Both the position numbers and the translations under genes were made by a program. 41,645 nt of DNA from a virus: positions 1 through 41,645 of IMG/VR virus record IMGVR_UViG_3300049927_000251. One strand, 5' to 3'. Position 1 is the stretch's first letter. Every line of letters begins with the position of its first letter. The notes below the pieces were generated by a model that made no database searches, was not told the DNA's origin, and saw nothing but the letters and a program-made list of their open reading frames with translations. This document shows positions 1,667 to 39,129 of this stretch, piece by piece.

Positions 1667-2751
1667 GCGAGCAGCACTGGTTTCTGTTTGACGCTGAATG
1701 GCAGAAGGCGTTTGTCGTTGTCCGCGCGCGGCCGTCGGCCTCGATCCGCATGTGGGCGAGGGAGCTGGGCTGGAAGCATACTCGTGTCGCGCGTTTCCTG
1801 GACGGCATGGCGAGACACGGTCTGGCTGACGTCATCTCTACCACAAAGGGAACGACAATCAGGATCCACGCCGGCGTCGAGCTGCCCGATCTCACGATCG
1901 CAGGTCGCCACGCCGGCGGAGCCGGATCGTCAGACGGAATCTCGCCGCGCGTCAGGTTCGCAGTTTTCTCGCGCGATCGCTTCACCTGTCAGTACTGTGG
2001 CGCCCGCGGTGATGGCGTCGTCTTAGAAGTCGATCACATCGTTCCAGTTGCCCGAGGAGGCAGCGACGATGAATCGAACCTCACGACCGCATGTCGCAAA
2101 TGCAACTCTGGCAAATCGGACCAGGTCATTCTGTGCGGGCCGGAGCAGGACACTTCGAGACAGGCCGTAACACCCGCTAACTCGCTGCAGCCGCAGCAGT
2201 TCCAATCAAAGCCGGGTGTACCGCCCGTTACACGGCGTGACACGCATCTAGGTAGTAAAGCTCTAGATCTGGATGTACCTAGATACGAGAAGCCGAAACC
2301 GAAAGAGCCGCCGGAGCCACGGCCGATCGCGGATCCCGACGACGTCAGGTTGATCAGAGCTGCAAACGCGATCTTCTCCGATCGGAACTGGGACACGATC
2401 AGCGAAGACAACTTCGGCTCGCTCAAAGCGGCTAAGAAGATCCTCGCCCTGGTCCCGGTCGATCGAGCGATTCCGCTCCTCGAGTCCGCGTGCCGAGTGT
2501 TCAATCCGAGCAAGACCGGTGGCGATGTTCCGCGTTCGCTCGGTCATCCCTTCTTCGCTAAGCATGTCGTCGGCGAATGGCGCCGCATCCAGAAGGACCT
2601 CGAGGGCGGTCAGCTCTCGATGCTCTTCGTCGAAGACTCTTCCACGCCGCAGCTCCAGGAATACAAGCCGGAGCCAGGCGGCGTCACCGATCCCGCGGTC
2701 GTGTCAGCTGTCATGCTGGACGTCGCCGCCAAACTGGGGCTCACACGATGA
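1663..2751 (+). CDS. Winged-helix replication-type protein with internal HNH nuclease domain
   Basis: This 362-residue protein starts at a TTG preceded by CGGAGG at 1648-1653. Residues 1-75 resemble the winged helix-turn-helix of phage replication initiators (Asp-Ala-Glu-Trp...Ala-Arg-Glu-Leu-Gly-Trp...Val-Ala-Arg-Phe-Leu). Residues about 96-155 form a complete zinc-binding HNH domain: Cys109-x2-Cys112, Asp124-His125, Cys144-x2-Cys147-Asn148. After a Pro/Lys-rich linker (about 165-225), residues 226-310 form a helical domain ending in Gly-His-Pro-Phe-Phe and a Trp-Arg-Arg motif. Known phage initiators often pair a winged helix with a C-terminal loader-type domain; an HNH inserted between them is less usual. 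It may initiate replication, nick origin DNA, or be a homing domain that entered a replication gene. Confidence 0.75.
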   Translation: MSEQHWFLFDAEWQKAFVVVRARPSASIRMWARELGWKHTRVARFLDGMARHGLADVISTTKGTTIRIHAGVELPDLTIAGRHAGGAGSSDGISPRVRFAVFSRDRFTCQYCGARGDGVVLEVDHIVPVARGGSDDESNLTTACRKCNSGKSDQVILCGPEQDTSRQAVTPANSLQPQQFQSKPGVPPVTRRDTHLGSKALDLDVPRYEKPKPKEPPEPRPIADPDDVRLIRAANAIFSDRNWDTISEDNFGSLKAAKKILALVPVDRAIPLLESACRVFNPSKTGGDVPRSLGHPFFAKHVVGEWRRIQKDLEGGQLSMLFVEDSSTPQLQEYKPEPGGVTDPAVVSAVMLDVAAKLGLTR

Positions 2752-2945
2752 CACTTCTCGCTGTTCTCAGGTACGTCGTCGGACTCGGAGTCATCGCGTG
2801 GATCTGGAATGTCGCGCGATCGTGCGAAACGCCCCGCGAAAATCCGGAGAAAAAGGACCAACCTGTTCCAACCGAGCCGCTGCCCAGTGAGCGGAGGCCC
2901 CGGCTCGTGCGCGACGTACCGCTCCATCCGATCTCACGCAACTAA
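2748..2945 (+). CDS. Small single-pass membrane protein
   Basis: This 65-residue protein begins with a transmembrane helix at about residues 2-20 (Leu-Leu-Ala-Val-Leu-Arg-Tyr-Val-Val-Gly...Trp-Ile-Trp) followed by a charged, Pro/Glu/Arg-rich tail that is probably cytoplasmic. The ATG overlaps the previous stop as ATGA. Its place among early genes rather than in the lysis cassette makes a holin role unlikely. No function is recognised. Confidence 0.6.
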   Translation: MTLLAVLRYVVGLGVIAWIWNVARSCETPRENPEKKDQPVPTEPLPSERRPRLVRDVPLHPISRN

Positions 2946-2955
2946 GGGGGGCACG

Positions 2956-3207
2956 TTGGACGAACTCTCAGCCGAAGAGCAGGCGCAGCTCGACAAGGCA
3001 TTCTCACGTATCACGCGCCGAAGCCCGGGCAGCCGGAGCTATACACTAAACTCCGCGCGCAGGCGCGAGATCTGGCGCGATCGATTCTCCTCTCGTCGCC
3101 TCAGTCACGCGAGCGAACACGTGAGGCGCTGGGTTACGATCGGCGCGAAGATCGTGTTCTGGACGCTGGTCGCGTTCATCGCGATCCCGATGGCGTGCGG
3201 TAGTTAG
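2956..3207 (+). CDS. Small tail-anchored membrane protein
   Basis: I place the start at the TTG at 2956 because a run AAGGGGGG (2944-2951) gives a strong ribosome-binding site just upstream; the longer reading from 2809 would overlap the preceding gene extensively. The 83-residue product has an acidic start, a basic Arg-rich middle and a C-terminal hydrophobic helix at about residues 60-78 (Ile-Val-Phe-Trp-Thr-Leu-Val-Ala-Phe-Ile-Ala-Ile), as in a tail-anchored inner-membrane protein. The function is unknown. Confidence 0.6.
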   Translation: MDELSAEEQAQLDKAFSRITRRSPGSRSYTLNSARRREIWRDRFSSRRLSHASEHVRRWVTIGAKIVFWTLVAFIAIPMACGS

Positions 3208-3239
3208 GCGGAGCTCGCCTTCTGTCCGCGGTTGCGCAC

Positions 3240-3461
3240 GTGATCGTGACCTTCGGCACTGTGCTTCGGTGCCGGCGCTGCCGCTCGCGCGTCGGGATGA
3301 CACCCGAGGTAGCGATCTGGACCGGTGCCGTCGATCGCATGCCGGCTGAGCCCGACGGCCTGATCTACGTCCAGTGCCGGCGTTGCAAGAAATTCCAGCG
3401 GTTCGAGGTCGCGCCGCCGGAACCAGTTGTCCCCGTGCGAGTCATACCTATACACAAGTGA
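3240..3461 (+). CDS. Small zinc-ribbon protein
   Basis: This 73-residue protein has two knuckles, Cys-x2-Cys at residues 11-14 and Cys-x2-Cys at about 46-49, each followed by basic residues. This is the layout of a zinc ribbon that could bind nucleic acid or protein. The GTG at 3240 is the longest start, but no clear ribosome-binding site precedes it, and GTG codons at 3246 or 3258 are possible. No specific family is recognised. Confidence 0.6.
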   Translation: MIVTFGTVLRCRRCRSRVGMTPEVAIWTGAVDRMPAEPDGLIYVQCRRCKKFQRFEVAPPEPVVPVRVIPIHK

Positions 3462-3470
3462 GGTGGAAAA

Positions 3471-3677
3471 GTGGACGATCAAGCACTCGCTGATGCGGTG
3501 AACAGGGCGCTGACAGAATTGACGGCTGCGGTCGACGCAGCTCGAGCGGCCGGCCTCTCTGTCGAGGTCTCAGTGACCGATTTCAAGACCGACGGGAAGT
3601 CGAGCACCGTTGTCGGCGCCAAGATCCAGCGCGTCGAGATGAAGGACTACTCCGTAAACACGTTGCGCGCGACGTAA
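3471..3677 (+). CDS. Small hypothetical protein
   Basis: This 68-residue protein starts at a GTG preceded by GAGGTGG (3460-3466), a good ribosome-binding site. It has an Ala-rich amphipathic helix followed by alternating beta-like residues (Val-Glu-Val-Ser-Val-Thr-Asp-Phe). It is the last gene of the left block before an AT-rich non-coding stretch. No family is recognised. Confidence 0.6.
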   Translation: MDDQALADAVNRALTELTAAVDAARAAGLSVEVSVTDFKTDGKSSTVVGAKIQRVEMKDYSVNTLRAT

Positions 3678-3790
3678 CTCTTTCATATACTTAGACTTGC
3701 ATACATAGATTAGCTTCGCGCCAAGCAGGCGCGAGCCCGGACCGGGACAACTCGTGGCCCACATTGCGGCCCCATTACTCCGCTCAGAAG
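3678..3790 (+). promoter_or_regulatory. Non-coding leader of the LuxR-type gene, probable promoter
   Basis: Bases 3678-3715 are markedly AT-richer than the surrounding DNA (TTTCATATAC, TACATAGATT), as expected of a promoter. No convincing -35/-10 pair can be fixed. A perfect 7-bp hairpin follows (TCGCGCC at 3716-3722, GGCGCGA at 3728-3734), then CCCGGACCGGG at 3736-3746. There is no T-run, so these are more likely leader RNA structure than a terminator. I infer that the regulator downstream has its own promoter here. Confidence 0.4.
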
Positions 3791-4132
3791 ATGAGTCCGG
3801 TGGATGGGGCCGCTTCTCTTATTCCGGCGGCCATGCCAAGGAAAACTCGTCAGTTGCTACTCGATCAGCTCGCGAAGCTCGTCGCTGTCGTGCCGTTCCG
3901 GCCGCTCACGGCCTCGGAGCAGCGCGTCGCGAATCTGATCGGGATGGGGCTCTCCTATAAAGCGATCGGCCGCCAGCTCAAAATGAGCCCGCGGACCGTC
4001 CAGCATCACGTCGGCATCATCGCCGGGCTCATTCCCGACGACGGTCTGCCAGCTCGGGAACGCGTCCAGGTGTGGGCCGCATGCGTCGTCCTGCCCGAGC
4101 TCGTGGAGATGCTGAAAAAGGTTCACAAATAG
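3791..4132 (+). CDS. GerE/LuxR-type helix-turn-helix regulator, putative late-gene activator
   Basis: The protein is a compact DNA-binding protein without the usual LuxR signal-binding or receiver domain. The GerE-type helix-turn-helix covers about residues 38-90: Leu-Thr-Ala-Ser-Glu-Gln-Arg-Val-Ala, Gly-Met-Gly-Leu-Ser-Tyr-Lys-Ala-Ile and Ser-Pro-Arg-Thr-Val-Gln-His-His are the classic helix signatures. I use the ATG at 3791 (113 residues); the ATG at 3833 (99 residues) and a TTG at 3764 are possible. It sits alone between AT-rich DNA and a repeat-rich control region in front of the terminase/virion operon. This position suggests an activator of late transcription, as GerE-fold activators act in other systems; the late-gene role is inference. 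Confidence 0.8.
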   Translation: MSPVDGAASLIPAAMPRKTRQLLLDQLAKLVAVVPFRPLTASEQRVANLIGMGLSYKAIGRQLKMSPRTVQHHVGIIAGLIPDDGLPARERVQVWAACVVLPELVEMLKKVHK

Positions 4133-4175
4133 CTGAACAGCTTACGCGAAGCCGCCTACGTGCATCCGCTCGGCG

Positions 4176-4187
4176 CATCAGCTGATG
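4176..4187. promoter_or_regulatory. 12-bp perfect palindrome, candidate operator
   Basis: CATCAGCTGATG is a perfect palindrome in the short non-coding gap between the LuxR-type gene and the virion operon. GerE-fold regulators usually bind dyad-symmetric sites as dimers, so it is a candidate site for the upstream gene product. It is short enough to arise by chance. Confidence 0.35.
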
Positions 4188-4208
4188 TGTTAGTGGCCGA
4201 TCGGGGCG

Positions 4209-4233
4209 AACGTGATACCCTTGACATCACGTT
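4209..4233. promoter_or_regulatory. Perfect 8-9-8 inverted repeat overlapping a TTGACA box
   Basis: AACGTGAT (4209-4216) and ATCACGTT (4226-4233) are perfect inverted arms separated by 9 bases. The spacer and first base of the right arm spell TTGACA (4221-4226), a consensus -35 hexamer. I see no good -10 box at 16-18 bases. The arrangement fits a regulator site at or over a -35 element; no T-run follows, so it is not a terminator. Confidence 0.5.
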
Positions 4234-4253
4234 GCGGAATCACGCCCGAGAGT

Positions 4254-4505
4254 GTGGAAGATGAGATCGTAAACAGCACGCTCGTCTCGGTGCGCATAGC
4301 GAAGGAAATTGGAGAGAAGCGCCTCCTGCTCGCGCGGCTCCACTGGGACAATCTGTTCGAATCGGCTTCGCCGCCGGGCGCCGTAGCTCCCTCCCTCGCC
4401 CGCGCCAGTCTCACTCGAGTCGCGATCGCGCGAAAAGAGTCGCGCCGCCGTCAGATGCGATCGGGACTCTCCGGATTCCTCGCCGCGGTCCGCCAGTGCT
4501 CGTAA
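4254..4505 (+). CDS. Small hypothetical protein at head of the late operon
   Basis: I choose the GTG at 4254, which keeps the gene clear of the inverted repeat; a GTG at 4212 in the same frame would start inside the repeat. The 83-residue product has an acidic start, a region Val-Ser-Val-Arg-Ile-Ala-Lys-Glu-Ile-Gly-Glu-Lys and a basic C-terminus. Its stop forms a TAATG overlap with the next gene, supporting this frame over a minus-strand reading of the same DNA. No family is recognised. Confidence 0.5.
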   Translation: MEDEIVNSTLVSVRIAKEIGEKRLLLARLHWDNLFESASPPGAVAPSLARASLTRVAIARKESRRRQMRSGLSGFLAAVRQCS

Positions 4506-9800: not shown

Positions 9801-10015
9801 TGACCGAGCGGACGAAAGAGTTCATCCCGATGGCTGAGGCGACGGAGATCGCGCACCGGAATTACCTCTCCGAGTTCAACGAGAAGGTCTGGCCGATCTA
9901 TCAGCGATATGGCTTCTCACGTGACGCGGCTCTTCTCTCTTGGAACCTGGACAAGATGCGCGAGCGCTTGGAAGGTATTGAGCAGCTGCTGACCGAGCCC
10001 GAGGACAGCTTCTGA
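9797..10015 (+). CDS. Small hypothetical protein between terminase and acetyltransferase
   Basis: This 72-residue protein starts at the ATG at 9797 (the adjacent ATG at 9800 is equally possible), overlapping the terminase stop as ATGA. It is helical and acidic, with a motif Trp-Pro-Ile-Tyr-Gln-Arg-Tyr-Gly-Phe-Ser...Ala-Ala-Leu-Leu-Ser-Trp. Small helical proteins with this look are common beside podovirus portal genes, but no function is established. Confidence 0.65.
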   Translation: MMTERTKEFIPMAEATEIAHRNYLSEFNEKVWPIYQRYGFSRDAALLSWNLDKMRERLEGIEQLLTEPEDSF

Positions 10016-10470
10016 TGACGCTCATTCGGCACGCCATCCAGGACGACCGCGAGTATCTCCTCGAGCAGCTGCGAGAGTTCGACAAGTTCTTCGGCACGAA
10101 GCGCCCGCTCTTCCCGGACAACGACTGCACTGCGATGGACTTCGTCGGGAACCTGATCGAGAACCAGGTCTTCTTCGTCGCAACACGAAGAGACGCACCG
10201 CGGCCGATCGGCTTCATCGCCGGCTACCTGGCGCCTCACCCGTACAACCCAGCGATCACGGTCCTCGCCGAGATGTTCTGGTGGGTGGATCCGGGCTACC
10301 GCGGCACGTCCGCCGGCGCGCGACTCCTCGATCGCTTCATCACGCACGGCCGCTTGAACGCGCACTGGATCGTAATGACGCTCGAGGCGAAGAGTCCCGT
10401 GGATCCCCGCTCGCTCGAGCGCAAAGGGTTCCAGCCGTTCGAGAGACAATTTCTCCTCGAGGTAGCATAG
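10015..10470 (+). CDS. GNAT-family N-acetyltransferase
   Basis: This 151-residue protein has a complete GNAT fold pattern: an N-terminal strand-helix (Ile-Arg-His-Ala-Ile-Gln-Asp-Asp), a central strand Pro-Ile-Gly-Phe-Ile-Ala-Gly, a strand Ala-Glu-Met-Phe-Trp-Trp-Val-Asp-Pro, and the acetyl-CoA pyrophosphate loop Tyr-Arg-Gly-Thr-Ser-Ala-Gly-Ala-Arg-Leu-Leu at about 99-109. GNAT genes recur beside the portal gene in many podovirus genomes. The substrate, whether a virion protein, a host protein or a small molecule, is unknown. Both ends overlap the neighbouring genes. Confidence 0.8.
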   Translation: MTLIRHAIQDDREYLLEQLREFDKFFGTKRPLFPDNDCTAMDFVGNLIENQVFFVATRRDAPRPIGFIAGYLAPHPYNPAITVLAEMFWWVDPGYRGTSAGARLLDRFITHGRLNAHWIVMTLEAKSPVDPRSLERKGFQPFERQFLLEVA

Positions 10471-12469: not shown

Positions 12470-12786
12470 GTGAGAAGCGAGCGCTGGTCGGGAATGCAGC
12501 GGATCCCAAGCAGGTCGCCGAAGCGGACAAAACGGAACGCCGTGGCCGCATGCGCGAGATCGACGACTTGAAGGCGATCCTCGAGCTACCGCAGGGTCGC
12601 CGGTTCTTGTGGCGGATCCTCGGACACGCCGGCGTCAATCAGACAGTGCTCGGTGTGAATGACGCGCGCACGAACTTCAACGCTGGAAGGCAGGACGTCG
12701 GGCATTTCGTGTTCGGCGAGATCGTCGAGGCCGCTCCCCAGCGGTACATCGACATGATGCGTGAAAACCAAAAGGAGAACGAATGA
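12466..12786 (+). CDS. Bbp19-like virion-region protein
   Basis: This 106-residue protein matches the Bbp19-like family named after Bordetella phage BPP-1. The diagnostic stretch is at residues 27-90: Asp-Leu-Lys-Ala-Ile-Leu, Gln-Gly-Arg-Arg-Phe-Leu-Trp-Arg-Ile-Leu, Ala-Gly-Val, Phe-Asn-Ala-Gly-Arg-Gln-Asp-Val-Gly, and Tyr-Ile-Asp-Met-Met near the end. It lies between portal and scaffold as in BPP-1-type genomes. Its molecular role is not established. Confidence 0.82.
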   Translation: MSEKRALVGNAADPKQVAEADKTERRGRMREIDDLKAILELPQGRRFLWRILGHAGVNQTVLGVNDARTNFNAGRQDVGHFVFGEIVEAAPQRYIDMMRENQKENE

Positions 12787-13571
12787 CCACGACTACAGCT
12801 GGCGCTCCTGGCGCTGGTGCAACTACGGCGGCCGACGCTGCAACGCAGGCCTCTCAGACTGCAACCTCTGGTGCCGGCGGAGCTCCTGCCGGCGACCAGG
12901 CTGCTGTCGACGCTGCGGCTCAGGCTGCTGCAGCTGCCGAAGCCACCAAGACTCCCGAGCAGAAAGCGGCTGATGTTGCAGCTGCTCAAGCAACCGCCGA
13001 CGCTGCAGCCGCCGAAGCAGCGAAGAAGGCAGGCGTACCTGACAAGTATGAACTGAAGCTCCCCGACAACGCCGGGGTCGACGCTGCGATCGTCGAGAAG
13101 ACAGCCGCCAAAGCGCGCGAGCTGGGACTCTCACAAGACAATGCGCAGAAGACGCTCGAGTTTGTCGCGCAGGAAGCCGCTGCCGAAGTCACGGCACGGT
13201 TGGCCGCTTACGCTCCGCCCTCGGATGCGAATCCGACCGGTGGTGAGAAGTGGCGCGAGCAGGACGAGACATGGAGAGCTGCCTCGCTCGCGGACAAGGA
13301 CCTGGGGAACGGAAAGCCCGAGCAGCTCCAAGCTGTAGTCGGTCTCGCGACGAAAGTCGTGGCAAAGTTCGGCGATGCGGATCTGACCGGCTTCTTCGAG
13401 AAGTCAGGCCTTGGCAGCAATCCCGCCACTCTCCGGTTCCTCTCGAGGATCGGGAAGGCGATGTCGGAAGGCTCGCTCGTGATCGCGGAAACGCCGACCG
13501 TTGCGGACAACAGCGAAGAAGCAGTCGCTGCCCGCCGGTACAATCACCCGACATCCAAGGCGAAGAAGTAA
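12783..13571 (+). CDS. Capsid scaffolding protein (putative)
   Basis: This 262-residue protein has a very Ala/Thr/Gln-rich low-complexity first 85 residues. It is followed by an acidic helical domain opening with Tyr-Glu-Leu-Lys-Leu-Pro and containing Gly-Leu-Ser-Gln-Asp-Asn-Ala-Gln-Lys, a pattern typical of scaffolds in this head-gene family. The C-terminus is basic (Ser-Lys-Ala-Lys-Lys), as many scaffolds need for capsid-protein contact. It directly precedes the major capsid gene. No protease motif is seen, so maturation by an encoded protease is not indicated. Confidence 0.78.
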   Translation: MTTTTAGAPGAGATTAADAATQASQTATSGAGGAPAGDQAAVDAAAQAAAAAEATKTPEQKAADVAAAQATADAAAAEAAKKAGVPDKYELKLPDNAGVDAAIVEKTAAKARELGLSQDNAQKTLEFVAQEAAAEVTARLAAYAPPSDANPTGGEKWREQDETWRAASLADKDLGNGKPEQLQAVVGLATKVVAKFGDADLTGFFEKSGLGSNPATLRFLSRIGKAMSEGSLVIAETPTVADNSEEAVAARRYNHPTSKAKK

Positions 13572-13609: not shown

Positions 13610-13640
13610 CCCTCTCGAGCGAACGCTCGCGGGGGTTTTT
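13610..13640 (+). terminator. Hairpin with T-run between scaffold and capsid genes
   Basis: The hairpin CCCTCTCGAGCG-AA-CGCTCGCGGGGG forms a long stem with one wobble and one mismatch, followed by TTTTT (13636-13640). This is a good intrinsic-terminator shape. The ribosome-binding site of the capsid gene follows within 11 bases, so it may attenuate scaffold-to-capsid read-through or protect a processed capsid mRNA. Confidence 0.6.
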
Positions 13641-13650
13641 CACATCCAGC

Positions 13651-13655
13651 AAGGA
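13651..13655 (+). promoter_or_regulatory. Ribosome-binding site deciding the capsid start
   Basis: AAGGA sits 9 bases before the ATG at 13665. Internal candidate starts (ATG 13749 and later codons) lack a comparable site. It therefore supports translation of the hydrophobic leader of the major capsid protein. Confidence 0.6.
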
Positions 13656-13664
13656 AAACCAGAA

Positions 13665-14798
13665 ATGAAATCCGCTCTAAAATGGCTCGCCATGGCGATC
13701 GTGTCGATCTGCGCAGTCGCGCTGATTGGCCCGGCCGCTTCTGCCGCGATGCCCAGTTTCGCCACCGGACTCAAGCTGACGGGCTTCGCGCTCGCCGGCT
13801 CGACGTTGGCGACGACCAACCCGACCCTGCTCGACCTGGCCAGGCTCCTCGATCCCAACGGCTCTGTCGCCGACATCGTCGAGATCCTGAATCAGACGAA
13901 CGAAGTCCTGGACGACATGACGTGGAAGGAAGGCAACCTGATCACCGGTCACCGCTCCACGATCCGGACCGGACTCCCCGCTCCGACCTGGAGGAAGCTG
14001 TACGGTGGTGTCCAGCCGAACAGAGGCACGACCGCTCAGGTCACCGATACGACTGGTATGCTCGAGGCGTATGCCGAGGTCGACGCAGCTGAAGCCGATC
14101 TGAATGGCAACGCGCCGGCGTTCCGTCTGTCGGAAGATTCCGCGCACATCGAAGGGATCTCGCAGGAAATCGCGAGCAAGTTGTTCTACGGAAATGAAAA
14201 GCTCCAGCCCGAAGCCTTCACCGGCTTGGCTCCTCGCTATCCCTCTGTGGTGGTCGCGACCGCGCAGTCCGCGGACAACGTGATCGATCACGGTGGAACG
14301 GGAACGGACAACACCTCGATCTGGCTCTGCGTCTGGGGCCCGAAGACCGGATTCGGCATCGTGCCCAAGGGCTCGAAGGCTGGAATCCAGGTGACCGACA
14401 AGGGTCAGGTGACCGTTGAGAACGTCGACGGAGCTGGCGGACGTGCCGAGATGTACCGCACGCACTACCGCTTCGACGCTGGTCTCTGCATCCGCGACTG
14501 GAGGTACTTCGTTCGTATCGCGAACGTCGACATCTCGGATCTGGCGACCGTCGCCAACACCAAGAACCTGATCAACTCGATGATCAAGGCGGCCGAGCGT
14601 ATCCCGAGCTTCGGCATGGGCCGCGCGGCGTTCTACTGCAACCGCCGGATCAGAGAGTCCCTCCGTATCGGCATCCTCGAGAAGATCGCGAACAACCTCT
14701 CGTGGGAGACTGTTGCTGGCAAGCGGATGATGGTGTTCGACGAGATCCCGGTCCGTCGCACCGACGCACTCCTCGAGACCGAAGCCCGCGTCGTCTAA
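13665..14798 (+). CDS. Major capsid protein (BPP-1 type) with signal-peptide-like leader
   Basis: This 377-residue protein is the shell protein. From about residue 46 it follows the BPP-1/Bbp17-type capsid family closely: Leu-Ala-Thr-Thr-Asn-Pro-Thr-Leu-Leu-Asp-Leu-Ala, Asp-Pro-Asn-Gly, Ile-Val-Glu-Ile-Leu-Asn-Gln-Thr-Asn-Glu, Glu-Gly-Asn-Leu, Gly-His-Arg-Ser-Thr-Ile-Arg-Thr-Gly-Leu-Pro and later Phe-Tyr-Cys-Asn-Arg-Arg-Ile-Arg-Glu. Relatives as I know them start near that point. Here residues 1-28 add Lys3/Lys6, a hydrophobic core (Leu-Ala-Met-Ala-Ile-Val-Ser-Ile-Cys-Ala-Val-Ala-Leu-Ile-Gly) and Ala-Ala-Ser-Ala-Ala, which has the form of a Sec signal peptide with an Ala-x-Ala site. The ATG at 13665 is backed by AAGGA. 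The leader may be cleaved, may anchor assembly at the membrane, or may play a delta-domain role. Confidence 0.92.
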   Translation: MKSALKWLAMAIVSICAVALIGPAASAAMPSFATGLKLTGFALAGSTLATTNPTLLDLARLLDPNGSVADIVEILNQTNEVLDDMTWKEGNLITGHRSTIRTGLPAPTWRKLYGGVQPNRGTTAQVTDTTGMLEAYAEVDAAEADLNGNAPAFRLSEDSAHIEGISQEIASKLFYGNEKLQPEAFTGLAPRYPSVVVATAQSADNVIDHGGTGTDNTSIWLCVWGPKTGFGIVPKGSKAGIQVTDKGQVTVENVDGAGGRAEMYRTHYRFDAGLCIRDWRYFVRIANVDISDLATVANTKNLINSMIKAAERIPSFGMGRAAFYCNRRIRESLRIGILEKIANNLSWETVAGKRMMVFDEIPVRRTDALLETEARVV

Positions 14799-14857
14799 AC
14801 CGAACGGCGCAGGTGCTTCACCTGTTCCACTTCACTCACAAACAACCTGACTCCTTC

Positions 14858-14863
14858 AAAGGA
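14858..14863 (+). promoter_or_regulatory. Ribosome-binding site deciding the cement-protein start
   Basis: AAAGGA lies 6 bases before the ATG at 14870. The internal ATGs at 15008 and 15014, where a family-length protein would begin, have only a weak G-rich stretch upstream. The long start with its hydrophobic leader is therefore favoured. Confidence 0.55.
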
Positions 14864-14869
14864 TAGAAA

Positions 14870-15466
14870 ATGAAAACGCTTCGCAACCTGAGTGCGATGC
14901 CGATCGCGCAGAAAGCCTTCTGGGCTCTCCTGCTCGTCGCCGTCGCCCTCTTGATCCCTCATCAGGCCTCTCAGGCGCTCGGCATGCTCGGTATGGGCGT
15001 GGCTGGGATGATCATGAGCGTGCGCGATGAGTTCTGCTCGAAGACCGCGCTGTGGACGGCGGGCACCGGTCTGGCGCTTGTTGGTAACGTGATCGACAGC
15101 TCCGTTGTCCGAGATCTGGGCTCGGGGCGGCCGGTCTACCTAGTGATCCTCGTCGACACTGCTGTTACGTCGGCGGGTGCAGCGACGGTCGAATTCGACC
15201 TCGTGTCCGATGCTCAGGCCGCGATCGCGGTCGACGGCTCGGCCAGCGTGCACTTCAAGAGCACGGCCTTCCCGAAGGCGTCGCTCATCGCTGGGTTCGC
15301 GGCCGTAGTCGTCGCGCTCCCGTTCAACGGTGGCGTGCCCTACGAGCAGTTCCTCGGAATCCTGCAGAACGTGGGAACCGCCGCTTTGACCGCGGGCAAG
15401 ATCAACGCCTTCCTGACGCTGGATCCCACGGCGTACCAGGCGTACCCGAACGAGCCGAACGAGTAA
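14870..15466 (+). CDS. Bbp16-type capsid cement protein with hydrophobic leader
   Basis: This 198-residue protein matches the Bbp16 family of capsid-stabilising proteins from residue 50 on: Val-Arg-Asp-Glu-Phe-Cys, Val-Ile-Asp-Ser...Arg-Asp-Leu-Gly-Ser-Gly-Arg-Pro-Val-Tyr, Asp-Thr-Ala-Val-Thr-Ser-Ala-Gly, and a C-terminal Phe-Leu-Thr-Leu-Asp-Pro. Ahead of it are 49 extra residues: a basic start, then Phe-Trp-Ala-Leu-Leu-Leu-Val-Ala-Val-Ala-Leu-Leu-Ile-Pro (17-30), then Gly/Met-rich residues. As in the capsid protein upstream this looks like a signal or anchor sequence, but the two leaders are not obviously homologous. It probably binds the outside of the capsid at inter-capsomer sites, as in BPP-1. 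Confidence 0.85.
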   Translation: MKTLRNLSAMPIAQKAFWALLLVAVALLIPHQASQALGMLGMGVAGMIMSVRDEFCSKTALWTAGTGLALVGNVIDSSVVRDLGSGRPVYLVILVDTAVTSAGAATVEFDLVSDAQAAIAVDGSASVHFKSTAFPKASLIAGFAAVVVALPFNGGVPYEQFLGILQNVGTAALTAGKINAFLTLDPTAYQAYPNEPNE

Positions 15467-15482
15467 TCGGTTCCGCAGAGGG

Positions 15483-15550
15483 ACACCCGCTTTCGAGCGG
15501 GTGTTAATGCGCGAGATCCCGGTCCCAACGCCGGGCGCAATCACCTTTTT
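15483..15550 (+). terminator. Two hairpins after the cement gene
   Basis: ACACCCGC (15483-15490) and GCGGGTGT (15497-15504) form a perfect 8-bp stem with a 6-base loop but without a T-run. A second stem CCCGG (15518-15522) and CCGGG (15531-15535) is followed by TTTTT at 15546-15550. Together they may partly terminate transcription or stabilise the capsid/cement mRNA. The next gene begins at 15565. Confidence 0.45.
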
Positions 15551-17170: not shown

Positions 17171-17823
17171 TTCTCGAAGGCATTTACAGGCGGTTCTCGG
17201 CCCTCCGCGTTGCGAAGGGTCCGATCGATATGCGTATGACGTTCACCGAAGCGGTCGCGATCGCACAGGTCGAGCCCGAGGGTCACGAGATGACGCGCGC
17301 CGGCCGTCGCTTCTCGATTGGTTGGACCGGTGCTGTACCTACGGGTATCGCGCCCGTCCAGGCGTTCCCGACGACGGCAGCGCAGTGGGTTTTGTGGAAC
17401 GGCGATCTCTCGAAGACCTACAGCCTGACTGCGCTCGGCGCGCTCCTCTTCTCCGGGACGAAAGGGCTCGGCGGCACGCTACTCGCCGCACTATTCAGCA
17501 CGCCTAGCCAGCAGGACTTGGCGCAGCAGGCCGGGGCCTCGGTCGTATCGCATTCCTTAAGCGCGATCGGCTCCAAGGCGGTCGTCAAATCCGGTATCAC
17601 GCTCACCGGCCCTGCGGTCCCGCTCTGGACGCCAGTCGCGGAGGACTTGATCGCAGTCGCCTCGGTCGGACCCGTCATGGCGATGGTCAATCGCATCAAA
17701 GCCGGTCGCCTTCAGATCCCGCCACAGAAGGGACTCGCGTTGGCGGTGCTCGCCCCTGCCGGCACGACGCCGCTCTACCTGCCGCTCGCGGAGTGGATCG
17801 AAGTCGAAACGGACATGGAGTAA
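17167..17823 (+). CDS. Hypothetical virion protein
   Basis: This 218-residue protein is hydrophobic and Ala/Gly/Leu-rich for its length (about residues 95-130 and 145-180), but without clean membrane helices. It begins with Met-Ile-Leu-Glu-Gly-Ile-Tyr-Arg-Arg-Phe-Ser-Ala and ends acidic. Its position between the repeat protein and the staple-type protein, with overlaps on the 5' side, implies a minor structural role. The family is not recognised. Confidence 0.65.
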   Translation: MILEGIYRRFSALRVAKGPIDMRMTFTEAVAIAQVEPEGHEMTRAGRRFSIGWTGAVPTGIAPVQAFPTTAAQWVLWNGDLSKTYSLTALGALLFSGTKGLGGTLLAALFSTPSQQDLAQQAGASVVSHSLSAIGSKAVVKSGITLTGPAVPLWTPVAEDLIAVASVGPVMAMVNRIKAGRLQIPPQKGLALAVLAPAGTTPLYLPLAEWIEVETDME

Positions 17824-17825
17824 CC

Positions 17826-18173
17826 ATGTCACTCGTCAACATGAAGGTTCAGAAGTCCCTCCTGCCCGACGGCACGGCTGGGACGCTAATGGGCGATCAG
17901 CCGGATTATCCCTATGGGCTCCGGATCTCGCTCGAGGACCAGGGCCTAACCGCCCTGGGCGTCAACGATCTCCCGAAGATCGGCGCGGATTTTATGATCA
18001 CGGCCCGCGTCAAAGTCTGCGGAGCGAGCGAGAATCCGTCCGAAGCCGCTGGCCAGGGCCGGCGTCTCGAGCTCCAGATCACCGATCTCGAGCTCCACGA
18101 CGACAAGGAGAAGTCGGACGACACAGTAGCCGGCAGGATCTACACGGCGCCAATCTCGAGCGGCACCAAGTAA
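17826..18173 (+). CDS. Capsid staple-type protein
   Basis: This 115-residue protein starts at the ATG at 17826, two bases after the previous stop. It contains Met-Ser-Leu-Val-Asn-Met-Lys-Val, Tyr-Pro-Tyr-Gly-Leu-Arg-Ile-Ser-Leu, Leu-Gly-Val-Asn-Asp-Leu-Pro-Lys-Ile-Gly, Ile-Thr-Ala-Arg-Val and Leu-Glu-Leu-Gln-Ile-Thr-Asp-Leu. I associate this series with the small proteins annotated as capsid staple in epsilon15-like phages, where they clamp the shell from outside. Its presence with Bbp16- and Bbp17-type proteins supports the same capsid lineage. Confidence 0.7.
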   Translation: MSLVNMKVQKSLLPDGTAGTLMGDQPDYPYGLRISLEDQGLTALGVNDLPKIGADFMITARVKVCGASENPSEAAGQGRRLELQITDLELHDDKEKSDDTVAGRIYTAPISSGTK

Positions 18174-18794: not shown

Positions 18795-19387
18795 GCGAAG
18801 AGAGAGTCGTCGACCTCCGCTGCTTGGACTGCGGAGGGGAGTTCGCGAGCGCCGATTATCCGGAGATCCTTCGCGGTTGCCCGGGGTGTGGGTCCGACGC
18901 GGTTCCGGCCGACCCGCGGGCTGACGCCGATTGGCTGCTCTCCGAATGGGAATGGAGAGTCATGGCGACTGCGGCGGTCCTATACGCCTACGCGCATAAC
19001 GGCGCAGACGGGATGCAGCGGTGCGCGAAGCGCCTTTGGCTCACCGTCATGGGCTCCGAGCTCCTGCTTCCCGAGCTAGCCGGCGTCTCGGAAGCATACA
19101 TTCGGGAGAGCGAAGAGCATCAGCCAAAAGGCGTTCGCTGTTCTCCTCACGAGATTCGCGTCCTCACGTTCTGGACAAGCGGGCTCGTCAAACCAGTCGG
19201 TGAAGGTCAGACGGCGATCACTGATGCCGACGTCGAGCCGATCCTCACCAAGATCCGACATCAGCAGCGCCGGCCGTTCGCGCTCACGCTCGAGGATGAG
19301 ATCGGAGAGATCCGACAGCAGTTCCCCAATTCAGAAGTCCACGTCGTGTACGGAGCCGACGCCAAGCAGGCGGATGGGGAGTCGTGA
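18791..19387 (+). CDS. Zinc-ribbon virion-region protein
   Basis: This 198-residue protein begins with a zinc ribbon: Cys-x2-Cys at about residues 11-14 and Cys-x2-Cys at about 30-33. A helical middle (Trp-Glu-Trp-Arg-Val-Met-Ala-Thr-Ala-Ala-Val-Leu-Tyr-Ala-Tyr) and a mixed C-terminal half follow. It is encoded between adaptor and nozzle with overlaps on both sides, a position that suggests a tail-assembly function. No family is recognised. Confidence 0.65.
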   Translation: MSEERVVDLRCLDCGGEFASADYPEILRGCPGCGSDAVPADPRADADWLLSEWEWRVMATAAVLYAYAHNGADGMQRCAKRLWLTVMGSELLLPELAGVSEAYIRESEEHQPKGVRCSPHEIRVLTFWTSGLVKPVGEGQTAITDADVEPILTKIRHQQRRPFALTLEDEIGEIRQQFPNSEVHVVYGADAKQADGES

Positions 19388-22300
19388 GCGCGATCGCGCA
19401 GCGGAGTTTTGCCGGGGGCGAGATCGCCCCTGCGCTCTATGCCCGAACGGACATGTCGAAATACGCGACCGGGCTCCGCACGTGTCGCAACATGATGGTC
19501 CAGCGCCAGGGCGGCGTCACGAATCGCTCGGGCACGGAATTCATCGCGGAAGTCAAAGACTCGACCAAAGCCGTCCGACTCATCGAGTTCGTATTCAACA
19601 CGAGCTCGGCGAATACCTACGTCTTGGAGCTGGGCGAGACATACGCGCGCTTCTTCCACAACGGAGCGGCGGTCACGGTGAGCGGAGTCGCTGCCTGGGC
19701 GAACACGACGGCCTACGCGATCGGCGATCTCGTGGCCGACGCCGGGGTGAATTACTACTGCATCTCGGCCCACACTTCAGCGACGGCGGTCGATAAGCCG
19801 GGAAGCGGCTCCAACTGGGGGATCCGCTGGTACGCGCTCACGGGCGCGATCTACGAGATCCCGACGCCTTACCTCGCAGCCGATCTCGCCGGCGTTCGCT
19901 TCGTCCAGTCGGCCGACGTAATCACGCTCTGCCACCCGAGCTATGCGCCGCGTGAGCTCAAGCGTTATGCGGCCACAAAGTGGATCCTCTCGCAGGTCGT
20001 GATCAATCCATCGATCTCGCCGCCGGCGAATCTCGCCAAGTCGGGGGGAACGGTCACCGCGTGGGCCGACACCACGATCTATACGATCGGCGATGTTAGA
20101 AGTTCGGGGGGCGCGAATTACATCTGCGCCGTGTCCCACACGTCGGCGGCCGCGCTCAACACACCGGGCACCGGCACGAACTGGCAGTCGTACTGGTATC
20201 CCGCCGGCGCTCGCTATTGGGTGGTCACCGCGGTCAAGGAAGGAACGCTCGAGGAATCTCTGGTGAGCGTCACCCTGAGCGGAGGCACCAGCTTCCCGAA
20301 CAGACCTTCGCCGATCGTGCTCACCTGGGATGCTGTCGTCGGGGCGATCTACTACAACGTCTATCGATCGACCGACGGAAACATCTTCGGATTCGTTACT
20401 GCGTCCGCCAGCACGACGGTTCTGCTAAGCGACAACGCGTGGACGACGACTTCGAGCACTGCGTCCACTCCAGTCACGGGTATCTGGATCCCTTCTCCTG
20501 GAACTCAGTGCCGAAACGCGCTCGCGGCGATCGGCGCGACCACCAAGCCATACGACGGAAAATTTAACGTCTACTTCAAGATCGCGGTGTCCGGTCCAGG
20601 CAGCGGCTACTACACGCTTGGACGAGTCCGAGTTTACTACAGCAGGAACGGCGAAGCGCGCGTCGACGCTGGGCTCCTGACCTCGGCCACCTACGCCGTC
20701 GGAAGCACTGGCACCGCGACTTACACCGACAGCGGTTCGGTGATTGTGCCCGATAACGGCTACACGACCCTCACGATCGACCTAGTGCCCGAAGTCTACG
20801 GTGGAGGCGGCGTCGCAACCTTCACCGCGGCACTCGATGAAACTCTTGCTGGATTCGACAAGATTGAATGGAACAAGACGGTGCCTGGCTACACGGACGA
20901 TGGCTCGATTCCGCAGAGCTATCTCATTCGCCCGCCGACTCAGGCCGCGCTCTTCGCCGGCGCGGATAAGTACCCGACGGCTGTCGCCTACTATCAGCAG
21001 CGTCGTGGGTTCGCTCAATCGAACAGCGCGCCGGAAACGGTATGGGCCTCGAGGACCGGCTCGCCCAAAAACTTTGCCCTCTCAACTCCGTTGCAAGACG
21101 ATGACTCTGTCAGCTTCAGTCTCGTCGGCCGTCAGGTGAACGCGATCCAGCACATGCTCGACTTGGGCCGGCTTATCCTCTTCACGAGCGGCGAGGAGAA
21201 GATGTGCGAAGGCGATCAGTCGGGGATCCTGAAGCCCGATGCGGTCAATCCGCGAAAACTCTCAGCCAACGGTATCGGCATTCTCCGGCCGCTCGAGCTC
21301 GACGACTCCGCGATTTACGTCCAGGCCCGCGGCAACCTCGTTAGAGACCTGAAGCCGGTCTCGGCCGATTCTTACCAGGGAACAGATCTCACCGTTTTCG
21401 CAGCTCACCTGTTCGAGGGCTATTCGATCGTCGACTGGACGTTCGCGCTCAATCCGCACTCGATCGTCTGGGCCGTGCGTTCGGACGGCACACTCCTGGG
21501 CCTCACCTATCTCCGCGATCACGCGATCTGGGGCTGGCACCGGCACGATACCGACGGGCTGTTCGAGAACGTGTGCGCGGTGCCGGAAGGCATCGAGGAC
21601 CGGGTCTATCTCGTCGCCAAGCGCACGATCAATGGTGTGACCAAGCGTTACATCGAGCGATTCGCCTCGCGGTTATTCACCGACCAGGAGGACGCGGTCT
21701 TCATGGACGCGGCACTTTCCTACGACGGCTGGAACACGGGCGCCACGACGATGACGCTCTCGGGTGGCGTCAACTGGGACGACCAGGAGCTGCTCACGCT
21801 GACGGCCAGCGTCGGCACGTTCGTCGCCGGCGATGTCGGGAACGTCATCATTCTCAAGCTGCTCAACTCGGCCGGCGTCGAGACTGATCGCGTTCGCCTC
21901 ACCATCTCCTCCTATACCTCGGCGACGGTGGTCAGGGGCCACGTCGACAAGATTGTCCCCGCCCTTCTCCGCGCTGTTGCCAAGACTACATGGGCGAAGG
22001 CGGTGAAGAGTGTGTCCGGACTCTCGCACCTCGAGGGGAAGTCGCTCTCGGTGCTCGGCGACGGTTACGTGGTGGCGAGTCCGAACAACGCGGCGTATCC
22101 CGTGGTCACTGTGGCCGCCGGCGTCGTGACGTTGCCCGCGCCCTACGCGGTCATTCGCGCCGGGCTCCCGTTCATCTCCGACGTGGAGACGCTCGATCTC
22201 GATGCGGCCGGCCAGTCGACAATCAAGGACCGAAAGATCCTCGTGAGCCGCGTGGGTCTCTTCATCGAGAAGTCGCGCGGGATCTGGATCGGGATGCCGA

Positions 22301-22515
22301 CCGGGCCGACCGCAGCGGATCCCCTCGCGGGACTTCAGGAATGGAAGGCGAGGTCGGAAGAGAACTACTCGAGCCCGGTCGATGCTCGGACGGAATCGAT
22401 CGAGGTGAACATCGAATCGAACTGGAATTCCAACGGCCGCGTCCTGGTTCGCCAGGTGGATCCGCTGCCGATGACGATCCTCTCTGCCACACCTATCGGG
22501 TATCTGCCCACTTAA
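19384..22515 (+). CDS. Tail nozzle (T7 gp12 / tubular B-like) with inserted surface modules
   Basis: This 1043-residue protein starts at a GTG overlapping the previous stop. The N-terminus (Gln-Arg-Ser-Phe-Ala-Gly-Gly-Glu-Ile-Ala-Pro-Ala-Leu-Tyr-Ala-Arg, then Gly-Gly-Val-Thr-Asn-Arg-Ser-Gly-Thr) and the C-terminal core with Tyr-Gln-Gln-Arg-Arg, Val-Trp-Ala-Ser-Arg-Thr-Gly and Trp-Gly-Trp-His-Arg-His are characteristic of podovirus tail-nozzle proteins. Inserted are two near-identical 42-residue modules at 104-145 and 226-267 resembling chitin/carbohydrate-binding family 5/12 units (Ala-Trp-x-x-Thr-Thr-x-Tyr-x-Ile-Gly-Asp). A fibronectin-III-like stretch follows at about 278-365 (Leu-Thr-Trp-Asp-Ala-Val-Val-Gly-Ala...Tyr-Asn-Val-Tyr-Arg-Ser). 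The inserts probably face outward and add weak sugar binding. Confidence 0.85.
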   Translation: MSAIAQRSFAGGEIAPALYARTDMSKYATGLRTCRNMMVQRQGGVTNRSGTEFIAEVKDSTKAVRLIEFVFNTSSANTYVLELGETYARFFHNGAAVTVSGVAAWANTTAYAIGDLVADAGVNYYCISAHTSATAVDKPGSGSNWGIRWYALTGAIYEIPTPYLAADLAGVRFVQSADVITLCHPSYAPRELKRYAATKWILSQVVINPSISPPANLAKSGGTVTAWADTTIYTIGDVRSSGGANYICAVSHTSAAALNTPGTGTNWQSYWYPAGARYWVVTAVKEGTLEESLVSVTLSGGTSFPNRPSPIVLTWDAVVGAIYYNVYRSTDGNIFGFVTASASTTVLLSDNAWTTTSSTASTPVTGIWIPSPGTQCRNALAAIGATTKPYDGKFNVYFKIAVSGPGSGYYTLGRVRVYYSRNGEARVDAGLLTSATYAVGSTGTATYTDSGSVIVPDNGYTTLTIDLVPEVYGGGGVATFTAALDETLAGFDKIEWNKTVPGYTDDGSIPQSYLIRPPTQAALFAGADKYPTAVAYYQQRRGFAQSNSAPETVWASRTGSPKNFALSTPLQDDDSVSFSLVGRQVNAIQHMLDLGRLILFTSGEEKMCEGDQSGILKPDAVNPRKLSANGIGILRPLELDDSAIYVQARGNLVRDLKPVSADSYQGTDLTVFAAHLFEGYSIVDWTFALNPHSIVWAVRSDGTLLGLTYLRDHAIWGWHRHDTDGLFENVCAVPEGIEDRVYLVAKRTINGVTKRYIERFASRLFTDQEDAVFMDAALSYDGWNTGATTMTLSGGVNWDDQELLTLTASVGTFVAGDVGNVIILKLLNSAGVETDRVRLTISSYTSATVVRGHVDKIVPALLRAVAKTTWAKAVKSVSGLSHLEGKSLSVLGDGYVVASPNNAAYPVVTVAAGVVTLPAPYAVIRAGLPFISDVETLDLDAAGQSTIKDRKILVSRVGLFIEKSRGIWIGMPTGPTAADPLAGLQEWKARSEENYSSPVDARTESIEVNIESNWNSNGRVLVRQVDPLPMTILSATPIGYLPT
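19693..19818 (+). repeat. Carbohydrate-binding-like module, copy 1
   Basis: This 126-base coding repeat runs from Ala-Trp-Ala-Asn-Thr-Thr to Gly-Ser-Asn-Trp. The conserved aromatic and Gly-Asp residues fit a small CBM5/12-type fold. It pairs with copy 2 of identical length at 20059-20184. Confidence 0.65.
20059..20184 (+). repeat. Carbohydrate-binding-like module, copy 2
   Basis: This is the second 126-base copy, running from Ala-Trp-Ala-Asp-Thr-Thr to Gly-Thr-Asn-Trp. It is separated from copy 1 by 240 bases. Equal length and collinear motifs indicate internal duplication. Confidence 0.65.
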
Positions 22516-33695: not shown

Positions 33696-33760
33696 CCAAA
33701 CACTCGGTCGTGATCGCGACTACGGTCGAGATCAGCTTGCAAATCGTTCACCGCGCCTGA
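33692..33760 (+). other. Possible 22-codon ORF or gene remnant
   Basis: An ATG overlaps the preceding stop (ATGA) and opens a 22-codon frame that ends inside the 3' end of the minus-strand esterase gene. It may be the stub of a further lysis gene cut off when the esterase gene was inserted. There is no protein-level evidence. Confidence 0.2.
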
Positions 33761-34590
33761 ATGATCGCCGCGATCTCACTGGCAATCCACTGTCGCACTG
33801 GGGTCGAGTAGTGCAGGTAGTCGCCGACGGTGAGCTCCGGCGCTGCCCATGTCTGGCCGTCGTCGGTCGAGAGATGCGCCGACAGATCTAAGAGCGAGAG
33901 GCCTTTCGCTCGAGCGAGTGCCCGGATCCCCGCATTGATGAGCGGGATGTTGTGTCCCCAGAACGGCGGCAGCGTCGTAATGATCAAGTGCGACGGCGCG
34001 TTCCCGGCGCTTACCCACTGGTCCGCCATCCACGAGAGATCGGCTAACGTGGAATCCGGAGACATGAAGTAGATCGCGGAATCGTTCGTGCCGATTGACA
34101 CGTATGCATAATCGGCGCTCGTCGGCACGAACGCCTCGATGCGCGGAATTCCGGTGTCGCCATCCCAGGTCGGCCGACCGCGACCCAATACCTCGGCTTC
34201 GAAGCGCGTTATCCCCTTCGATATGTAGCGCGCACCAGGCGCCCAATCGAAGCCTACGCCCGAGCCGGAATAGCCGAGCCCGTGATTGATTGCCTTGAGT
34301 TCGAACTCGCCTGTCGACAGCGCTTCGAGGAGCCCGGCGAGCTGGTGCGAACCGTTGGGCGCTCCCGGAGCCAAGCGCTTGGCATTCCCAGAAATGTAGG
34401 ACGCCTCGACGATCACATCGCCCTCGTAGCCAAAATCGGTGTTCGAATCTCCGAACAGCGCCACTCGCACTGAGCGGACGACCGGTCGATCAAACGCGGT
34501 GGGGGAACTGCACCCGCTAACTACTGCGAGGAGGGATCCGCGTAAGCAGAGTGATAGAAAAGTGCCCCTCTGGTGATATGAAATCGACAT
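33748..34590 (-). CDS. SGNH-hydrolase lipoprotein, putative lysogenic-conversion gene
   Basis: This 280-residue protein is read on the minus strand between plus-strand lysis and immunity genes. The N-terminus is a lipoprotein signal: a hydrophobic stretch 11-24 then Val-Ser-Gly-Cys with Cys27 as lipid site. The SGNH/GDSL esterase blocks are complete: Gly-Asp-Ser-Asn at 47-50 (nucleophile Ser49), an Asn-His-Gly region near 102-104, Gly-Thr-Asn-Asp at 167-170, and Asp257-x2-His260 (Asp-Tyr-Leu-His). GAGG lies 6 bases before the start. The likely location is a periplasm- or surface-facing membrane leaflet, and the likely reaction is hydrolysis of ester groups (for example O-acetyl) on surface glycans or lipids. 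This could alter the phage receptor after lysogeny; function and substrate are inference. Confidence 0.82.
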   Translation of the reverse strand: MSISYHQRGTFLSLCLRGSLLAVVSGCSSPTAFDRPVVRSVRVALFGDSNTDFGYEGDVIVEASYISGNAKRLAPGAPNGSHQLAGLLEALSTGEFELKAINHGLGYSGSGVGFDWAPGARYISKGITRFEAEVLGRGRPTWDGDTGIPRIEAFVPTSADYAYVSIGTNDSAIYFMSPDSTLADLSWMADQWVSAGNAPSHLIITTLPPFWGHNIPLINAGIRALARAKGLSLLDLSAHLSTDDGQTWAAPELTVGDYLHYSTPVRQWIASEIAAIIQAR

Positions 34591-37960: not shown

Positions 37961-38185
37961 ATGGCGATCGGGAGCACGAAGGACTCGACGGCGACGATCG
38001 CGGCTCAGAAGGCCGCGGTCCTGATCGCGTCCTACACGGCGAGCTGCACCGCGAACGCGGTCCTGGCTGACAAGGGCTCGGCGATTCGGGCGGTCACTGA
38101 AGCGAGAGAGTCGATCGCGCGGCGCAAGAAGGAGCTGGATCACGCGACTCAGTGCATCTCCGCCCATCACACGATCAACCTATGA
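37961..38185 (+). CDS. Small hypothetical protein
   Basis: This 74-residue, Ala/Ser/Thr-rich, mostly helical protein has two Cys (about 33 and 66) and a Lys/Arg/Glu segment (Arg-Glu-Ser-Ile-Ala-Arg-Arg-Lys-Lys-Glu). It starts two bases after the preceding stop, and its end overlaps the ATG of the DUF5131 gene. No family is recognised. Confidence 0.55.
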   Translation: MAIGSTKDSTATIAAQKAAVLIASYTASCTANAVLADKGSAIRAVTEARESIARRKKELDHATQCISAHHTINL

Positions 38186-39129
38186 GCACCAACACCGGCA
38201 TCGAGTGGACTGATGCGACGTGGAATCCGATCCGCGGTTGCTCGCGTGTGTCGGAGGGATGCCGGCACTGTTACGCGGAAGTCGTCGCAGCACGGTTCTC
38301 CGGACCGGGCCAGGCATACGCAGGCCTCGCTCGCCGCACGTCGAAGGGCGAAGCCCGCTGGACCGGCAAGATCATGTTCGTCGAAAAGCACCTTAACGAT
38401 CCGCTCCGTTGGCGGAAGCCGCAGCGCATCTTCGTGAACTCGATGAGCGATCTGTTTCACGAGCGCGTCACCGACGAGCAGCTCGATCGCATCTACGCCG
38501 TAATGACGCTCGCGACGCGTCACACATTTCAGGTGCTGACCAAGCGGCCCGGGCGGATGCGCGACTACATCCTATCGAAACTCGTCGACCGGCGCGATCG
38601 CTCAACGGCGAAGATGTCTCAGGTCCTTTCGGATACTGCGTTGCCTCTCGGGCTCGCGTGGCCGCTCTGCCCGACATGGCCGCCGCCCAACGTCTTGCTG
38701 GGCGTCAGTGCCGAGGATCAGTCGACGGCGGACGAGCGAATCCCGGTGCTTATGGCGACACCCGCAGCATACCGTTTCGTCTCGCACGAGCCACTGCTCG
38801 GGCCTATCCTGCTTCGCTGGCCGGTGGATTGGGTGATTGTCGGCGGAGAATCGGGGCCGAATGCTCGGTCGTGCGATGTTCAGTGGATACGGGACATCGT
38901 GCGTCAGTGCCGAAGGTCTGGCCTGCCGGTGTTCGTGAAGCAGCTGGGAGCAGAGCCTGGCTTCAAGCTCGAGGACGAAGAGAGGCGCGGGAATCCGATG
39001 CCGAGTTTCCACCACTCGGACGGCGACCTCTTCATAAAGAAGCTGGATGATTCACACGGCGGCGATCCCGCTGAATGGCCGGAAGAGTTGCGCGTCCGCG
39101 AATTCCCCAAGGAGGCGGCAACCGTATGA
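38182..39129 (+). CDS. Phage Gp37/Gp68 family (DUF5131), radical-SAM-like protein
   Basis: This 315-residue protein has family hallmarks in order: Ile-Glu-Trp-Thr-Asp-Ala-Thr-Trp-Asn-Pro at 6-15, Cys20-x6-Cys27-x2-Cys30-Tyr, Phe-Val-Asn-Ser-Met-Ser-Asp-Leu-Phe-His at about 84-93, Leu-Thr-Lys-Arg-Pro, Leu-Leu-Gly-Val-Ser-Ala-Glu-Asp, and Val-Gly-Gly-Glu-Ser-Gly-Pro with Val-Lys-Gln-Leu-Gly near the end. The three-Cys cluster is thought to bind an iron-sulphur cluster, so the family is treated as radical-SAM-like. To my knowledge no reaction is established. The start ATG is coupled to the previous stop (ATGA). Confidence 0.88.
   Translation: MSTNTGIEWTDATWNPIRGCSRVSEGCRHCYAEVVAARFSGPGQAYAGLARRTSKGEARWTGKIMFVEKHLNDPLRWRKPQRIFVNSMSDLFHERVTDEQLDRIYAVMTLATRHTFQVLTKRPGRMRDYILSKLVDRRDRSTAKMSQVLSDTALPLGLAWPLCPTWPPPNVLLGVSAEDQSTADERIPVLMATPAAYRFVSHEPLLGPILLRWPVDWVIVGGESGPNARSCDVQWIRDIVRQCRRSGLPVFVKQLGAEPGFKLEDEERRGNPMPSFHHSDGDLFIKKLDDSHGGDPAEWPEELRVREFPKEAATV

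Follow-up and report, generated by a model that had tools for sequence, protein, structure and literature searches.

Signal-peptide-like leaders on capsid and cement proteins suggest that some phages build or gather their shells at the bacterial membrane

Tailed phages are thought to build their shells on a scaffold out of soluble subunits in the cytoplasm. N-terminal capsid extensions that have a role in assembly and are then cut off are familiar from the delta domain of HK97 gp5 and the propeptide of T4 gp23. In the shell of Bordetella phage BPP-1, which is built of the capsid protein Bbp17 and the cement protein Bbp16, the capsid N-terminus lies on the outer surface and augments the cement β-sheet, the N-terminal loop of the cement protein touches that of the capsid protein, and both proteins are uncleaved, their gel masses matching those of the uncleaved gene products (PMC3863775).

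The 41.6-kb phage record analyzed here over its whole length (the window) carries a BPP-1-like head module and shares with BPP-1 the capsid core, the cement fold and the gene order Bbp21-Bbp19-Bbp18-Bbp17-Bbp16. Unlike BPP-1, in which neither shell protein has a leader, the window encodes both with a signal-peptide-like N-terminal leader. Leaders of this kind also occur, in scattered fashion, among other short-tailed relatives of BPP-1. Sequence comparison suggests that phages bearing them make or gather their shells at the bacterial membrane. Literature searches turned up no description of such leaders on shell proteins of phages, nor of membrane-gathered shells in this setting.

The head module and its two leader-bearing genes

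From 5' to 3', the window encodes a portal protein (Head-tail_con), a Bbp19-like protein, a Bbp18-like protein, the capsid protein and the cement protein. Both shell ORFs were confirmed at the positions given here:

12783-13571, plus strand: Bbp18-like gene, adjoining the capsid gene on its 5' side (phrog_458, E 2e-31)
13651-13655, plus strand: Shine-Dalgarno sequence AAGGA, 9 nt 5' of the capsid leader ATG
13665-14798, plus strand: capsid ORF, 377 aa
13665-13802, plus strand: capsid leader, residues 1-46, preceding the start of the 3j4u alignment at residue 47
13803-14798, plus strand: major capsid protein core, Bbp17/GP7 family, HK97-like fold, BPP topology
14858-14863, plus strand: Shine-Dalgarno sequence AAAGGA, 6 nt 5' of the cement leader ATG, read from the sequence
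14870-15466, plus strand: cement ORF, 198 aa
14870-15010, plus strand: cement leader, residues 1-47; leaderless relatives start at about residue 47-48
15011-15466, plus strand: cement protein core, Bbp16 family, jellyroll

The capsid core matches the Pfam GP7 profile from end to end (PF20911, 444 bits, profile positions 1-313 of 313), with the domain beginning at residue 63, while Bbp17 of BPP-1 (3j4u) aligns from residue 47 (phmmer E 4.7e-112) and is the first Foldseek match (prob 1.00). Judged by this core, the window capsid is a member of the Bbp17/GP7 family, its 46 extra N-terminal residues marking a variant and not an exclusion. The leader consists of a basic start, a helix at about residues 2-25, an AASA turn and an apolar stretch at 29-46 that ends in AGS (Gly45). 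Its most hydrophobic 12-residue stretch reaches KD 2.89, and AlphaFold2 predicts helices at 2-25 and, at low confidence, at 31-51. The initial annotation had recognized the leader but confined it to residues 1-28, which is the first helix up to AASA; the true extension is about 46 residues. For the cement protein, the 46 residues proposed earlier agree with a measured extension of 46-47. This second leader also has a basic start, followed by a helix at about residues 12-28, a second apolar segment (ALGMLGMGVAGM) and Gly46 at position -2 from the core, with a hydrophobicity peak of KD 3.03 over 12 residues and AlphaFold2 helices at 12-28 and, again at low confidence, at 33-39. The cement core scores 64 bits against PF21190 (the Pfam Bbp16 domain begins at residue 66) and matches 8cjz and 3j4u_H in Foldseek.

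The Bbp18-like gene, homologues of which precede the capsid gene in 70 of the 76 loci sampled, probably encodes the scaffold. PHROG 458 is annotated as 'protease', yet a Pfam protease domain is absent from this protein, and Pfam detected no protease domain, prohead protease included, in a scan of 28 window proteins that took in part of the head module. Of these, only the Bbp18-like gene product carries the PHROG 'protease' label.

Intrinsic terminators in the head module showed no excess over shuffled sequences. Hairpin-like sequences unscored by that scan flank the capsid-cement pair at 13611-13640 (GAGCGAACGCTC, followed by a G run and five T) and at 15479-15505 (ACACCCGCTTTCGAGCGGGTGT). Elsewhere in the window, a GNAT acetyltransferase gene (10015-10470) lies between the terminase-region genes and the portal gene, a Gp10-like domain (PF21628) is encoded at 17793-18173 in this same phage that has a Bbp16-type cement protein, and a 1043-aa protein with two CBM_5_12 carbohydrate-binding modules is encoded at 19384-22515. 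On the minus strand near the lysis genes are genes for a DUF5131 protein (38152-39129) and a GDSL-type lipase/esterase (33748-34590).

Distribution, start sites and anatomy of the leaders

A scan of N-terminal hydrophobicity over about 50 called window genes identified clear leaders on the capsid and cement genes, the holin-like gene at 31398 and the spanin-like gene at 32488, and also flagged one dubious minus-strand frame. Core-only searches yielded about 95 relatives starting at (M)A-TL.T.PTL or a close equivalent, with the exception of L026 (= L107), which has leaders of its own on both the capsid (MKLFLLCLMVLLTG...VVGL) and the cement protein (MNRTHIGLAAIAAVL...VFGL). Further leaders were sought with DNA patterns that forbid an ATG start codon at the junction; such patterns are blind to leaders retaining an ATG there, and the core-based searches revealed none of that kind. 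Matches were obtained in IMG/VR (L115, L112, L108, L109, L110, L111, L113 and L189) and in genomes, namely L134 (Gammaproteobacteria MAG), L135 (Proteobacteria MAG), L151 (the isolate Azoarcus sp. L1K30) and L171 (Hydrogenophaga MAG). As judged by eye from the ORF list, the L151 locus lies in a region that resembles a prophage and contains terminase-, portal- and tail-like genes. Capsid leaders are thus present in the window and in 13 further phages or prophages, and cement leaders in three phages (the window, L115 and L107), bearing out the earlier view that two leaders in one head module are not due to chance. Searched with the leader parts of two query leaders, the cultured-phage collection contained no matching record. 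Sequencing or frame error was ruled out by the presence of leaders on 14 independent contigs, as was determination of the leader by host lineage, since leader-bearing and leaderless prophages both occur in the family-level draws (Azoarcus and Hydrogenophaga hosts).

In L107, two extra genes (2643-3029 and 3026-4381) lie between the portal and the Bbp19-like gene. Their products start with signal-peptide-like leaders (..RKRLLWLIVILALGVVPVRAVVA and MTPRHRILLTVALTGALCYPRGVVAQ) and look like fibre-type or surface proteins of the virion, matching known families slightly or not at all.

Comparison of N-termini with those of about 90 leaderless relatives confirmed that Bbp17- and Bbp16-type proteins start where the leaders end, each leaderless relative starting at the equivalent position behind its own ribosome-binding site. 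The initial annotation would have counted such relatives against the leader if they lacked both it and a ribosome-binding site; most do lack the leader, but they do not refute it, the leader being an added, lineage-specific trait. That leaderless relatives begin at the leader-core junction could also mean that the leader is untranslated or bypassed and that the real starts are internal, an option raised at the outset. The good ribosome-binding sites noted before both window leaders are, however, real (AAGGA and AAAGGA, above), the best Shine-Dalgarno sequence precedes the leader in 14 of 14 leader-bearing capsid genes, and no start within the leader of any of these 14 genes has a comparable one, by which internal capsid starts were ruled out. 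Together with coding-type GC3 in both window leaders (0.79) and dN/dS values mostly below 1, this leaves bypass of the leader with almost no credibility. The other options of the initial annotation, namely cytoplasmic cleavage, an assembly domain and a membrane tether, each fit the sequence.

All 17 leaders combine an n-region charge of +1 to +3 with a hydrophobic helix of KD 2.2-3.3 over 12 residues, and beyond residue 12 all except the L115 cement leader (16/17) contain at most one charged residue. The first helix is followed by an Ala-rich turn, in which an acidic residue or a Pro is common, and then by a second apolar stretch, long in L107 and L112 and short in the L109 group; in several members 8-12 uncharged residues precede the core, which would not suffice for a complete second transmembrane helix. 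The leaders end in an apolar-Gly-x pattern that abuts the core, with Gly at -2 in 16 of 17 (capsid and cement), which was matched by 0 of 20,000 composition controls, a comparison that overstates independence because the leaders are partly related by descent. Inspection by eye ruled out a rhomboid site at this junction, the P1 residues being too varied, and a prepilin peptidase site, the hydrophobic stretch being on the wrong side.

The signal-peptide reading of the initial annotation is supported by the basic n-region and the hydrophobic h-region, found in 17 of 17 leaders. Ala-x-Ala, the cleavage motif on which that reading leans, is present in all 17 as well, but shuffled Ala-rich tails predict 15.6; its occurrence is expected from Ala content, and after the shuffles it was dropped as proof of signal peptidase cleavage. 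An ordinary cleavable Sec signal peptide, cut at Ala-x-Ala by signal peptidase I, with the subunit slipping back to the cytoplasm or a share of it truly exported, would fit the n/h/c-region layout and sites such as APAYA/Q, APASA/S, TPAEA/S, VDAQA/A and PAASA/A (cut at the slash). In addition to the lack of enrichment, all copies begin at the leader, so that efficient export would starve assembly, and the conserved Gly of the junction comes several to about 18 residues after the most canonical sites. We consider ordinary Sec export unlikely.

Selection, exchange and coupling

In four non-overlapping pairs drawn from the two best-sampled groups, leader dN/dS was approximately 0.31 (L109-L171), 0.53 (L111-L113), 0.21 (L108-L135) and 0.33 (L134-L151), compared with roughly 0.1-0.2 for the cores. 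Leader codons are thus mostly under amino-acid constraint, weaker than that on the core; signal-type sequences are usually loosely constrained. Leader identity is 30-60% where cores are 60-93% identical, and hydrophobicity and the basic start persist throughout.

The L110 and L111 capsid cores are 99.7% identical (dS 0.02) and their leaders 45%, and in the DNA alignment identity ends where the leader meets the core, the DNA upstream being divergent, a break that marks the leader as an exchangeable module. A quick tree of capsid cores requires at least six changes in leader presence, all forced by supported branches, so the leader was gained, lost or exchanged repeatedly. On the Bbp18-like tree the trait requires eight changes, and the idea that the leader merely travels with the Bbp18-like gene holds only in part. 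The cores of L151 and BPP-1 are 87% identical, with an equivalent Shine-Dalgarno sequence and start position 3' of the Bbp18-like gene, and L151 differs by a clean 41-residue leader between the ribosome-binding site and start on one side and capsid residue 3 on the other.

A leader spread by mosaic exchange and tolerated as a passenger with little function would explain its scattering on both trees, the L110/L111 contrast and the dN/dS near or above 1 of some L110 leader pairs. Yet the architecture, the start site and the junction Gly are kept over at least six lineages, dN/dS is below 1 for most leader pairs, and an unrelated second protein of the shell bears such a leader too, which makes a mere passenger improbable. 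Repeated gain and loss would also fit an arms race, in which the leader is directed at the host and either jams Sec late in infection, as highly expressed exported fusions such as LamB-LacZ are known to do, or lets the capsid escape a capsid-sensing defence system. A dedicated small protein would be simpler, and we regard a host-directed role as highly improbable.

Capsid and cement leaders are coupled: cement leaders occur in 3 of the 14 phages with a capsid leader and in 0 of the 90 without one (one-sided Fisher P 0.002, kinship ignored). Similarity between the two is highest, or tied for highest, within a phage, at z values of only 1.4-2.1, and the cement leader may be a within-phage duplicate of the capsid leader. 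Because the two N-termini meet on the BPP-1 shell exterior, both leaders would arise in one zone, facing a membrane outside the shell. The joining of leaders to shell proteins whose N-termini meet would also suit a soluble assembly or packing domain, delta-domain-like or acting as a hydrophobic shell plug, and HK97 is a precedent for a separate extra assembly domain. Fast divergence with kept hydrophobicity and a basic start, however, is more what one expects of a membrane signal than of an interface for specific packing, and a putative scaffold gene, the Bbp18-like gene, is already there. A soluble domain therefore appears distinctly unlikely.

A membrane-directed reading and known systems

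The reading we favor, tentatively and at slightly less than an even chance, is that membrane-targeting or anchoring leaders collect the subunits of the shell on the inner membrane, at its cytoplasmic face, and are probably removed before the final shell. The leader would be a translated N-terminal membrane-targeting element composed of a basic, signal-peptide-like first helix and a second apolar segment. As a signal anchor or helical hairpin, it would direct freshly synthesized capsid protein to the inner membrane, along with cement protein in some phages. The fast-folding shell domain would stay in the cytoplasm, where the scaffold, portal and packaging motor act; it is placed there because packaging needs it there. 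Gathering at the membrane would concentrate shell subunits or hold early procapsids in place, after which the leader would most likely be cut near the conserved Gly-x junction or at Ala-x-Ala sites, giving a near-leaderless subunit. Removal is assumed because several hundred exposed hydrophobic helices per head would give a free virion a greasy outer surface, a poor fit. In favor of this reading are the ribosome-binding sites before the capsid leaders, the basic start and apolar helix, the Gly at -2, the leader dN/dS values below 1, the coupling of cement to capsid leaders, the meeting of the two N-termini in BPP-1 and the contrast between L151 and BPP-1. Against it stand the shortness of the second apolar segment in several members, the low AlphaFold2 confidence for the second helix and the uncleaved state of the BPP-1 shell proteins. 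The more complete picture, of an HK97-type shell assembled on the inner membrane by way of removable leaders on capsid and cement, with the shell domain cytoplasmic and the leader swapped between near-identical capsids, is possible but doubtful. To our knowledge, a membrane-templated assembly route has not been described for tailed phages.

If the favored reading is true, some phages, in at least six lineages, route their most abundant virion proteins through the membrane. BPP-1 and the Azoarcus L1K30 prophage, a close pair of which one is leaderless and the other leader-bearing, make the question directly testable. For annotation, signal-peptide filters would label these capsid proteins as secreted.

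Among known systems, the Carin1 phage (PDB 8cjz) and epsilon15 gp7 (PDB 3j40) have homologous capsid cores, and 8cjz also has a homologous decoration protein; unlike the window capsid, both are leaderless, their capsid alignments beginning at chain residues 2-4. The HK97 delta domain and the T4 gp23 propeptide differ from the leaders described here in being soluble and cut by a phage prohead protease, whereas the leaders are signal-peptide-like. With Sec signal peptides and anchors the leaders share the basic n-region, the hydrophobic h-region and the Ala-rich turn, but they stand on proteins expected to be cytoplasmic, contain one more apolar segment and meet the core at a conserved Gly-x. 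By their cores, the two proteins belong to the Bbp17 and Bbp16 families in the ordinary way, and the leader is a new feature outside the described structures of those families.
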